DNA of 64,000 bases, taken from assembly GCA_964035015.1 (NCBI GenBank), contig OZ035998.1, positions 52,052,947 through 52,116,946 of the forward strand, in the 5' to 3' direction. This document shows positions 8,301-23,300 of the stretch, piece by piece. The notes under the pieces were generated by a model. The model was not told the origin of the DNA. It was given only the letters and a program-made list of their open reading frames with translations, and ran no database searches. The position numbers were made by a program, and so were the translations under genes. The DNA is from Corallium rubrum. Taxonomy: Eukaryota; Cnidaria; Anthozoa; Scleralcyonacea; Coralliidae. Position 1 is the stretch's first letter. The number at the start of each line of letters is the position of its first letter.

Positions 8301-11300
8301 ATCGTGATGATGGCAGTATAGTACCAGATTTATTGTGCCTGTTTGAATCTTGTTGTTGGGAAGGACATCAGTAGTTTTGTGAGAGTATTAACATGTGACC
8401 TGTCTTTACAACGATTATCTCTTGTAAGGGACGTTTTGTCCTATTAGAGAGCTTAAGCAAACAACGCGAACGTCAAGAACAACGTCCTTAATACAATAGA
8501 ATTTTCCTCACACAACAAAGAAAATGAATAATTTTTAGTCTCAAGAGTAATCTTAACGCCGTTCCGTTCTACATACAACATTATTCAGATCATTTTCACG
8601 TCTTCAGAGCGACGTTAACTCGTGAAACGGCGAAACTTGTTAGTTGAGTTTGACTTCAAACTATGCGACAAAATCCTTTTAAAACTCTAAAGCTTTTGGA
8701 TGTCGAAAAACATACTTTAAGTATTCAATACTATACGTGAATGATTTGTGGTTTCTGCTAGATATACTGAACTTTGGATTGCCGTCGTCGTCCTAGCTAA
8801 ATTAAGCTCCCTATTGTCTATGATACCCGCCTTATGCAAATTTGTAAATAAATAAATAAAAAGCATCTAAATAGCCATGTTTTCAAACTATTTTTCAAGG
8901 TGGAGTGATTTTAGCTGGGTAAATTGAAGAAAAAGTTTAATGTAAATCGGGACGAATCTGTATGCGATTTACAGATATTGATTAAACATTCATTTCTTTT
9001 GAATTTTCTTCATGAATTATTAATGATTTCATGAATTTGTTGACTTGTCTTCCTGTATCTACCTATTTTGTCTTGTCATCATTCTTCGTTTCGTATTCAG
9101 ATATTGACGAATGCTTGAATAATCCCTGCCATGCTTGGGCAAAGTGTAACGACTATGCAGGTGGGTATACCTGTGTGTGTAATCGTGGTTACACTGGAAA
9201 TGGAACTAATTGTGAAGGTACAGTTTCTTATTTTGAATCCATTACTTAGCGAGTATATTAATTTAATAGAAACGTCAATTTATGTTCATTAAGAATATAA
9301 TCTACGCGAAAAGCTGTATTATTGTGCATGCGCATGTTGAATTATGAGGGCTGTTTATATTGAGGTGAGTCAGGTTTAGTGAGCTGTTTAGGCGAGCACG
9401 AGTGGCGTGTGCTGTTAGTGCGCTGCTCCTCATCACTGCAGTGCAGAGTTAAGCTCGGTTGGACGGGGTTAGTACTTGGATGGGTGACCGCCTCTTTACT
9501 GAGCTTCGAGCTGGTTTTTCGCTGGATTCTCTGGTTTTCCTCCCTCCGTAAAACCAACACCTACATCTTAGCTGTGATCCGTGGTCTGAACTGTGTCGTA
9601 TGGCGGCTGCCTGGAGCGCCTTTGATATGCCTCGACACGGCCACGTTGATCTGCGTCTTTTACAATTTAGCCACTGGCTGTGAGTAAGGTGATTAGCCCC
9701 CAGTCTTGTCCTTGCCTTAACAATATGACCTGTTTACATTATTGGAGGGCCACAAGTTTGTTAGTACTTTGTACTATTAAGTGTCACCCTCTTTAAAGTG
9801 TATATGAAACGAAAATTAAGTTTGTCTTATTTGAAAGAATTCTTAAAATAATGGGGAATATCAATTTACAGCTTTTTCATATTTTACTTAGTTCTTGAGA
9901 TATTTAGACTTACGTGATATTCAAATGAGATAACTTATGGTTCGTTTTTTCACTAATTAACATATTCGAAAATCGCGAATATTTTTAAGATTATTGAACA
10001 AAACCACTTGAAACTTTGCATATTGCTACAGTTCATGCAACTAAACATGAAAGACAAGTTACAAGGGATTTTGATCAACAATCTTAAAAATATTCACGAT
10101 TTTCGAATATGTTAATTAGAAAAAAACGAACCATAAGTTATCTCATTTGAATATCACATAAGTCTAAATATCTCAAGAACTATAAGTAAAATATGAAAAA
10201 GCTGTAAATTGATATTCTCCATTATTTTAAGAGTTCTTTCAAATAAGATAAACTTAATTTTCGTTTCATATACACTTTAAATAAAGTTTCTATTTTTATC
10301 TATTAACATGGCTAGACCAGAACTGAATAAGGTATGTGTACAATGTGACCTGTACACACTTGCAACCTAGGGCAGGTCTTTTATTTACTAATACAGTTTT
10401 GTGCTGTAAAACTAAAGTTTGATTATTTCGTGTTCTAGACATCAATGAATGCCAATCAAACCCTTGCGAGATTGGCGCAAATTGTGTTAATAAGCCTGGA
10501 TCCTACCAGTGCGTGTGTCCTGAAAATCTATATCGCAATGGAAATTTCTGTCACGGTATGTCAATGTTTGAATGAAGATGTTTCACTGTAGAAAGAATTA
10601 ATTGCTTAGAGTACTAACTTAAACCTTGTTATTTTTTATTATTTTGTATTTATATTTCATTATTGTCGCTATCCTAAACACTATATACTTTTTTACACTG
10701 TCGTGTAATTCAAAGCCGTGATATTAGTGTTGCTCATTTTCTTTTAGTATTTTGTCCCTTCAAGCTGTGATATTAGTGTTGCTCATTTTCTTTTAGTATT
10801 TTGTCCCTTCAAGCCGTGATATTAGTATTGCTCATTTTCTTTTAGTATTTTGCCCCTTCAAGCCATGATATTAGTGTCTCTCATCTTTTTTTAGTATTTT
10901 GTCCCTTCAAGCCGTGATATTAGTGTCTCTCATCTTTTTTTAGTATTTTGCCCCTTCAAGCCGTGATATTAGTGTCTCTCATCTTTTTTAGTATTTTGCC
11001 CCTTCAAGCCATGATATTAGTGTCTCTCATCTTTTTTTAGTATTTTGCCCCTTCAAGCCGTGATATTAGTGTTTCTCATCTTTTTTAGTATTTTGCCCTT
11101 TCAAGCCATGTTATCATTCATTTCGTTTCTATCCCGCATTCTGATTGGTTAATTCACCTGCAAATAACTGAGTGCAAATAATTTTCTGCTTGCAAATAAT
11201 TTTATGAGCATGCGCACTAGCGATAACACTGCTGACGGCAAACAATTTTCGTAAACATGGCGGCTAGTTCTTCAGCTATCCGAGGAAATAATCGAGAGTA

Positions 11301-20300: not shown

Positions 20301-23300
20301 CAAGTTGGATCTTGCGTTTATCGTTGATACGTCTCAATCAATTGCTGAAGCAGATTTTCTCAAAGTCAAAAATTTTATGATGGAAAGTGTAGCAAAAATG
20401 GAAATTGGAGAGGATGGAAATCATATTGCCGCAATTGCTTTTGGTAACATTGCTGAAGTATTTATGGATTTCAACACTATTTCTGGTCAAGATTTGTCCC
20501 GTGCGGCAGTTATTAATAAACTGTCCAACTTTACGCAACTCGGTGGGTTGACAAGAATTGATCTTGCATTACTAATGGCTGAAAGAAATATATTCACTCA
20601 GGCTAATGGCATGCGTACTTCAGATCAAATAAGAAAGGTAAAGTATTTTGTTTTTTGTCTTTTTTGGGTTTTTTATTGGGTTTTTTTGTTTTCTCTTGTT
20701 TTTTGTTTGGTTTTTTTTTTTTTTTGAGGGTTTTTATGGGGGTTTTTTTTGTTGGCTTTTTTTGTGTTTTTTTGTGGGTTTTTTGTGGTTTTTTTGTGTT
20801 TTATGTTTTCGTTGTTTTTGTTTTTGCGTCTACATGTTGCGTTTATCCAACCATGTAGCACTATGTTACCAGCATGGATGTTTCTATTATGTGCGCATGC
20901 CTGACTGTGTTTCGTCAAACCACAGGTCGCCCAGACGCGTGATATGACAAGCGACCAGTAAACTCGTTCTCAGGGTTTTGCGCGTCGACCGAGAAGCATA
21001 ATTAAGATTATGTCAGCCTCATAGACTGAACGCCGTCGCGTAACAAATTTCACGAACCATACACATTTGCCCCACTGATCTATATATCAGTGATATGCAC
21101 CGTCTAACACTCTTCATGAAACTTGTGTCGCTTGCTTTGGTTCACCAACTATTGCAGTTTCAAGAAAAAAATGCCCGGGTAACGCGCAGGACCTTTAAAC
21201 CTGTAGGCGAATGTACACAGTGCGTACTTATGTTTGTTTTTGTTTTTTGTTTTTTGTTTTTTGTTTTTTGTTGTGTATTTTCTTGTTTTTTCCCCTTGAA
21301 GCAATCACATGATAAAGAAGCACTAGTACTGTTACGTGTAACAAAATTATGAGGATAATGTTTTTTACTGTTTTTCGTTTGGTGTTTTATCGCCATTCTG
21401 ATATACAGCATTCATGTATTACTAGGTTGCTGTTGTAATTACTGACGGAGAACAAACTACTGGACCAGGTGTTCCGGTTGAGCCTTTGAACGATATTGCC
21501 GGAAGACTTCAAGCCAAGGATATTACTGTTCTTGCAATCGGTGTGGGCGCCAACGTTCCGCGCCATCAAATGCTCAACATTACCAATTCAATCGAAGAAA
21601 ATATTTTGGAAGTCAATTCATTTGATAATTTATTGTCTGTGATCTTTCAATTTATCAACGTATCTTGCACAGGTATGTAGAAATTTATAATCTAAGTATA
21701 AATTGTCGTTAATGATGTAGCATTCTCACACTCATTAATAATTCATGGGTTATAATTAGCCAATGAAAGAAAAATATTAATTAGCCAATCAGAGAAAAAT
21801 ATTTGATCATGTGTATGAGTTTTGAAACCCGGTAAAGGTCGCGCTAACTGAATTCATAATTAAGAAATCAGATAATAAATGGCACAAACAAAAGACCGTT
21901 CATTACCACATTTCTTAATTATAAATTCAACGTGAAACCATTGTCTAATCTAATACACCAATATCACCAAGTCCCTCTACTATAATTGACGATTGAGAAG
22001 CTATTTCATAAATTCGTGTATCGTGTTTTACCAGGAGTTACAAACACTCGAGAACAACAAAAATCACTCGGCCTATTACCTCGTAATTTTCAATGTTCTC
22101 TCGTGTTTGTAAAACATTCGAAAACAATAAAAATCACTCGACCTGCAGCCTCGTGATTTTCATTATTCTCTCATGTTTTACAAACACTCAAGAACGATGA
22201 AAATTACTCGGTTAACTACCTCGTGATTTTCATTCTCTCATGTTTTACAAACACTCGAGAACAACGAAAAATACTCGGTTAACTACCTCGTGATTTTCAT
22301 TATTCTCTCATGTTTTACAAACACTCGAGAACAATGAAAAATACTCGGTTAACTACCTCGTGATTTTCATTATTCCCTCATGTTTTACAAACACTCGAGA
22401 ACAATGAAAAATACTCGGTTAACTACCTCGTGATTTTCATTATTCTCTCATGTTTTACAAACACTCGAGAACAATGAAAATTACTCGGTTAACGGCCTCG
22501 TGATTTTCATTGTCCTCTCGTGTTTGTAACCCCTGGTAAAACACTCCCGCTCGTTTATGAAATATTTATATCATCCTATTAATTGACCACGAAGTCTTCA
22601 CGTGCTACCACCCGCACGAGAGCTCTTAATTTTTTTTAATTTGCATATTGCGCGACTCTTCTGTACTTGGCAAACATTGTTCCTCATGCAAGTGGGAGCG
22701 TATTTGTACAATTTTGAACAAATTGTGTAGAATTGCCGCGTTCAAATTGCTTTTTTTTGTTTCATTATGTTGAATTCGCCATTTTCAGACAATCCTGGCC
22801 AAAAGTGTTTGGGCCACCAGGTGAAAAACGTCAAAAACAGCAAAATGTTTCAACGATTTTGGCCAGGATTGCAGTCTATACACTATTGTGTACGGAACAA
22901 GTTATTTTCCTTAAGATTACAAGTTATAACCTTTGTCAGGCAGCACAGCCCTAATCTAGATACAGCTTTAGTCACTTTGATCATTCCCGCATTTACTTCC
23001 CTGGGCAAAGTATATATAGAAAATCGCGCGCGCTGATTGGTTGAGCTACTTTGGACTAATTCTCGATAATCACCTACAGCGTTTATTCGAAATGGCCGCC
23101 AGCCAATTTGTCAATATGCGACAGATGACGAAATGAACAATTTAAAGAAAATGTTGTTCCTAAAAGTACGAAAATGTGTATCGGCTTCCTCTCAGTTAGT
23201 GTTCACCGATATTCACCTCGCCTTCGGCGAATAATTGTTAAATATTGAATTTATTTTTTTTTATTTGCTACATGTTTTTCTTCAGATATTGATGAGTGCA

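Follow-up and report, generated by a model that had tools for sequence, protein, structure and literature searches.

In Corallium rubrum, nearly all of a 9.7 kb intron between EGF-like exon 6 and the first of two vWA exons of one gene is occupied by a tandem array of 185 units, whose consensus copies the 3' border of that intron together with the first codons of the vWA exon. The window, i.e., the whole stretch of 64,000 nucleotides that was analyzed (assembly GCA_964035015.1, contig OZ035998.1, positions 52,052,947 to 52,116,946 of the forward strand; all coordinates below are positions within it), contains part of this animal gene, with about 20 EGF-like exons and one vWA domain split across two exons. 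We favor reading the array as a runaway duplication that the gene tolerates, and consider it quite probable that the explanation as a whole holds, namely that a border duplication grew to 185 units, that it is tolerated and that the acceptor adjoining the exon is still used. The evidence lies in the anatomy of the array, in an exon border that is ancestral, in decoy acceptors that equal the true one on their intronic bases, and in the consequences that their use has for the reading frame.

Exon Border in the Last Unit

The original prediction had placed the acceptor and the first 17 coding bases of the vWA exon in the last repeat unit, running seamlessly into the exon, and this was borne out. 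The last unit (20256-20304) passes unbroken into vWA exon 1, and after the phase-1 donor of EGF-like exon 6 (CACG/GTATGT) the junction AG/TATTTTGCCCTTTCAAG/TTGGATC reads V-F-C-P-F-K-L-D. Translated from the same donor, AG/TATTTTGCCCTTTCAAGTTGGATC gives an open frame into the vWA exon, and the phases fit. The identity of the domain is firm on the basis of its Pfam match. The features concerned are the following:

10439..10555, plus strand: EGF-like exon 6, ending NFCH; donor ACG/GTATGT, phase 1; EGF_CA 5.3e-08
20286..20287, plus strand: true acceptor AG of the vWA exon; score 9.1 with the intron-only position weight matrix (PWM) described below
20288..20304, plus strand: first 17 coding bases, (V)FCPFK, common to exon and repeat unit
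20288..20637, plus strand: vWA exon 1, 350 nt; donor AAG/GTAAAG, phase 1 to phase 0; Pfam VWA 2.1e-32

Within the unit, CTCAT lies 11 nt from the junction and is unlikely to be the branch site, being too near, while TGAT at 26 nt would be the better candidate. A ratchet point, as used in recursive splicing, combines an acceptor with a donor immediately behind it, which allows re-splicing without loss of a base. Recursive splicing through the array was rejected, since the AG is followed by TATTTT, and a second splice at the GT that the junction creates would lose one base and shift the frame.

Organization of the Array

The array, first described as roughly 190 tandem copies, is real, with its numbers to be corrected: alignment of the consensus to both strands, unit by unit, gave 185 units of ~49 bp between 10716 and 20304, of which 149 are in sense and 36 in antisense orientation, the latter forming three blocks of 12. 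This count excludes a small number of incomplete units lying in gaps of 14-35 bases. Units of 49 bp (96 of the 185) and of 48 bp (56) are the commonest lengths, and the consensus consists of 32 intronic bases, with a T-tract and a terminal AG, followed by TATTTTGYCCYTTCAAG, i.e., the 17 coding bases. This core occurs 171 times with at most two mismatches, always within 10748-20304, against a chance expectation of 0.17, and Tandem Repeats Finder (TRF) detects the array too, with a period of 49. The AG is retained in 145 of the 149 sense units and reads GG in the other four. The first full unit begins at 10716; the left flank (10656-10715) was rejected as a decayed unit because it matches the unit no better than shuffles do (p 0.48), and no further units were found elsewhere in the window.

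Many units have variants of their own. The three first and three last units carry 4, 5, 6, 2, 8, and 3 edits as compared to a median of 2 (p 0.002 if units are taken as independent, which they are not). The two most variable columns of the exon part (TG[TC] and CC[CT]) are synonymous third positions, a weak observation that was not used as evidence.

The inner part of the array shows a higher-order repeat of ~2.3-2.4 kb in three copies, each terminating in an inverted 12-unit block, and the spacer from the last sense unit to the inverted block is 12 bases in all three. From left to right, the parts are:

10716..11105, plus strand: left section of the array with 8 sense units, of which the first three diverge (4, 5, and 6 edits from the consensus vs. 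a median of 2)
11111..11645, no strand assigned: insertion of ~535 bp within one unit, seen as a 533-bp gap in the unit alignment; ends TTATCA...TGATAA by eye; inner 150-bp palindrome at 11494-11643 (81% identity)
11646..12325, plus strand: stretch of sense units from the insertion to the higher-order repeats, by the unit alignment
12326..14755, plus strand: higher-order repeat copy A, with an inverted 12-unit block at 14178-14749
14178..14749, minus strand: inverted block of 12 units, predicted to form a long hairpin in the pre-mRNA
14756..17058, plus strand: higher-order repeat copy B, with an inverted 12-unit block at 16483-17052
17059..19489, plus strand: higher-order repeat copy C, with an inverted 12-unit block at 18903-19483
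19490..20304, plus strand: right section of the array with 17 sense units, the true acceptor lying in the last, by the unit alignment

The insertion is likely a small inverted-repeat transposable element, and no second copy of it was found in the window at E 1e-3. Inverted blocks, higher-order repeat and inserted element were all absent from the original prediction.

A shorter array inflated or inverted by assembly error or by chimeric reads might produce a similar picture, as three higher-order copies that each end in an inverted block could be a product of assembly. Pairwise comparison of the copies nevertheless shows about 2% difference as well as 77-188 gap columns, with identities of 98.3% for A and B (149 gap columns), 98.2% for A and C (77), and 97.9% for B and C (188). 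Together with the unit-specific variants and the greater divergence of edge units as compared to inner ones, this renders misassembly very unlikely.

Age of the Exon Border

Two protein searches returned 6 and 139 relatives (120 of the 139 listed), and 35 sequences were read. The start of the exon is present in eight close relatives, seven of which read VFCPFK (P0001, P0002, P0007, P0008, P0009, P0010, and P0011; P0008 and P0010 are near-duplicates of P0007 and P0009) and one AYCPFK (P0003). These close relatives resemble single exons whose reading continues into the adjoining intron, as would result from gene prediction that ignores splicing, and their upstream reading Leu-Val fits a T-rich TTAG/TA acceptor. 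The longest upstream readings comprise 17 residues (51 bases) in P0001 and 19 residues (57 bases) in P0003 before the first codon of the exon, and neither of these two, the only ones longer than one unit, contains an array unit upstream of the exon. The upstream reading of the window or of the consensus unit was matched by none of the eight relatives, six of which cover 4-8 residues only. Hence, the VFCPFK hexapeptide and the T-rich acceptor are most likely older than the array, and the occurrence of VFCPFK in relatives without the array unit points to the amplification of a pre-existing exon border. The proposal of a tandem amplification across the intron/exon border is thereby strongly supported.

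Among the 35 sequences, more distant relatives have other residues at this position, in most cases including a Cys placed a few residues ahead of the domain (e.g., P0005, P0024, and P0035), while P0006 has none. P0019 and P0020, which show the highest identity (71-72%), start inside the exon and are uninformative on the border. In a search of solved structures, PTMP1 and vWF A1 each had a Cys aligned to that of VFCPFK, and a Cys of PTMP1 was also aligned to that of INVSC. We take the Cys of VFCPFK and that of INVSC to form the disulphide that closes the vWA domain.

The age of the border also bears on the possibility that a widespread satellite landed or expanded beside the exon and supplied its acceptor and first codons. 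The window is indeed rich in tandem arrays (79 TRF rows, many overlapping), and the insertion and inversions mark the array as a dynamic region. A satellite origin is, however, difficult to reconcile with VFCPFK and the Leu-Val reading in close relatives that lack the upstream unit, which indicate a border older than the array. Besides the confinement of the unit to this array within the window, the array sequence had no exact match in viral contigs, and an open reading frame (ORF) of the array had no match in the protein database at E up to 10, which is a weak test. We therefore regard a satellite as very unlikely.

Decoy Acceptors and Predicted Hairpins

The 145 AG-bearing sense units comprise the true site and 144 decoys. 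Acceptor strength was scored over 20 intronic bases with a PWM derived from 21 other acceptors of the gene, which were themselves scored leave-one-out. With this intron-only PWM, the 145 array sites, true site included, range from 2.1 to 12.4 with a median of 9.4, the true site scoring 9.1, as compared to -2.0 to 12.8 with a median of 8.1 for the 21 other acceptors. The true site is equalled or exceeded by 79 of the 144 decoys, and its score is reached by 7 of 2499 AGs outside the array on the same strand. The acceptor CAAG/TTGG at the end of the last unit was rejected, since it meets a stop within a few codons from the phase-1 donor and scores 4.8 vs. 9.1. The view that every upstream unit is a look-alike acceptor thus stands for the 144 decoys, which score like real acceptors, and falls for the 36 inverted units and the four with GG; by the same count, many acceptors do compete, and the choice is one out of 145 instead of about 190. 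With decoys that match the true site in strength over their intronic bases, the acceptor itself is hardly what decides the choice.

Entry at an earlier unit had been expected to give the same six codons and then a stop, which was confirmed. From the phase-1 donor of EGF-like exon 6, 132 of the 144 decoys lead to a stop at the eighth codon (112 with the exact reading VFCPFKP-stop) and 142 to a stop within 30 codons, and none reads through. A frame-preserving escape, not part of the original prediction, exists for the locus: vWA exons 1 and 2 amount to 597 nt between phase-1 borders, and dropping both joins EGF-like exon 6 to EGF-like exon 7 in frame, whereas dropping vWA exon 1 alone breaks the frame. 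The downstream exons are:

21426..21672, plus strand: vWA exon 2, 247 nt, phase 0 to phase 1
23286..23405, plus strand: EGF-like exon 7, end approximate; candidate donor AAG/GTACAA

The inverted blocks are predicted to pair with neighboring sense units. The predicted fold of 13580-14755 (1176 bases, over one junction) has a minimum free energy of -910 kcal/mol with 95% of bases paired, and the AG is paired in 9 of its 12 sense units. Two shorter junction stretches gave -261 and -257 vs. -73 and -77 for 20 mononucleotide shuffles each, while a sense-only stretch of 390 bases gave -47 with 34% of bases paired. Since a hairpin requires an inverted partner, at most about a quarter of the sense units (36 of the 149) could be masked in this way. 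As for AGs within the inverted blocks themselves, even the highest falls short of all acceptors of the gene in a first PWM that included two exon bases.

These properties might also be read as those of a functional regulator, in which decoys and hairpins slow or lower splicing of the vWA exon and array length sets how full-length protein, an in-frame isoform lacking vWA, and decay products are balanced. The 144 decoys of native strength on intronic bases, the very stable predicted hairpins and the frame kept on skipping of both vWA exons would all suit such a role. On the other hand, the AG was lost in four sense units and the edge units have diverged; moreover, according to passages of two reports on comparable arrays in amphioxus, called mirages, splicing there stays undisturbed (PMC3087553, PMC3902484). 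We thus hold a regulatory function to be unlikely. A length-dependent splicing rheostat, in which 144 native-strength acceptors and three long double-stranded RNA hairpins compete with the true site, appears distinctly unlikely; if it existed, array length would set the share of transcript that keeps vWA, loses vWA in frame or is destroyed, and variation in array length would be a heritable control of the gene.

Proposed Origin and Tolerance of the Array

According to the tolerated border duplication favored here, a normal intron/exon border, consisting of 32 intronic bases with T-tract and AG and of 17 coding bases of the vWA exon, would have been duplicated in tandem and would have grown to 185 units, presumably through unequal exchange. 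One stretch would have gained an inverted 12-unit block, and a segment of ~2.4 kb including this block would then have multiplied to three copies. The gene would survive as the acceptor adjoining the exon is still used. In exon definition, an exon and its donor select the nearest acceptor upstream; following this, we propose that the vWA exon and its own donor AAG/GTAAAG define the last acceptor, and that the other 144 are bypassed or their short, stop-containing products are destroyed. The inverted blocks may additionally mask some decoys, and the vWA domain may be skipped in frame.

Several points weigh against this explanation. In the first PWM, the array sites had a median of 2.3 and the true site scored 2.1, as compared to 10.9 for the other acceptors; the true-site score was reached by 150 of the 2499 other AGs, and CAAG/TTGG lay slightly above it (2.4 vs. 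2.1). The low scores arise because nearly all other exons start with A, and the intron-only matrix was adopted after this first PWM had ranked the array sites low. The intronic part of the last unit is indistinct from the decoys, with a mid-range score, so that its selection would have to depend on the exon together with the donor of that exon, and use of the last acceptor is deduced only from frame and homology. Moreover, the relatives are predicted proteins, six of the eight having just 4-8 residues upstream of the exon, and collagen VI alpha 3, the best-scoring structure, aligned mostly from residue 6 or 7 onward and does not show the Cys. Finally, the 9.6 kb array and its inverted blocks are known from assembled sequence alone.

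Other Elements in the Window

Directly upstream of EGF-like exon 6, a palindrome of ~490 bp (9792-10281; arms of ~245 bp with 90% identity) is likely a foldback element. Two pairs of EGF exons are nearly identical, namely 34395-34514 and 41781-41900 as well as 51559-51678 and 54458-54577 (ends approximate), and their upstream readings are similar too, which suggests recent exon duplications in the gene. Other long simple arrays (28537-28817, 28973-29514, 51271-51446, and 52616-54261) end 24-196 bp upstream of an EGF acceptor. A clustering of arrays near acceptors was rejected: of 11 arrays chosen by hand, 5 are found within 200 bp vs. 3.2 expected (p 0.10), and four when the focal array is left out (p 0.10). 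A GIY-YIG-like reading frame present as two inverted copies (47695-48367) appears Penelope-like by eye, its tested fragment having no Pfam match, and fragments of LINE (long interspersed nuclear element)-type reverse-transcriptase reading frames, named by eye, are found at 35140-35811, 39312-40629, and 46849-47292. Two other ORFs gave no match in Pfam, and a search of Rfam was negative.

Comparison With Known Systems and Significance

Tandem copies of intron/exon borders, named mirages, were described in amphioxus for Adh3, globin (BflGb6/BflGb9), TnC and PGBD5 (PMC3087553, PMC3902484), and the class of array is therefore not new. In the parts of these reports at hand, Adh3 units measure 10-72 bp and splicing is given as regular (PMC3087553, PMC3902484), and the BflGb6 mirage has 3 or 6 units of 150-160 bp, with homogenized inner and divergent border units (PMC3087553). 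As in amphioxus, the C. rubrum repeats span the intron/exon boundary and copy the splice signal, the border is most likely older than the repeats, and the boundary units escape homogenization. By contrast, the array described here belongs to an EGF/vWA gene, extends over 9.6 kb with its 185 units, and includes inverted blocks, an inserted element and a higher-order repeat in three copies. Its copy number is more than an order of magnitude above that of the amphioxus globin mirage as reported in the available portion (3 or 6 units; PMC3087553), and a limited search found no acceptor array of such size among the open-access literature matches listed.

In the human IFI6 (6-16) gene, a minisatellite likewise offers a splice site of one gene in each unit (Turri et al., 1995); as far as the consulted extract goes, these are donor sites, two downstream units are used and three mRNAs result (PMC4526556). 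Acceptors are concerned in C. rubrum instead, and nearly every wrong choice soon meets a stop. The Rogers model, as cited in the part of PMC3087553 seen, derives intron gain from tandem duplication across proto-splice sites. It shares the first step, a duplication over a splice border, whereas here no new intron is seen and the copies remain within the old one.

The present locus offers 145 nearly identical acceptors in one intron, of which one is correct, and small variants between units label the site used. The rule by which the spliceosome picks one of several equal acceptors, be it first come, last before the exon or exon definition, is usually examined in settings with few sites. The array suggests that a gene can be burdened to this degree in one of its introns while the coding exons on either side of it remain intact.

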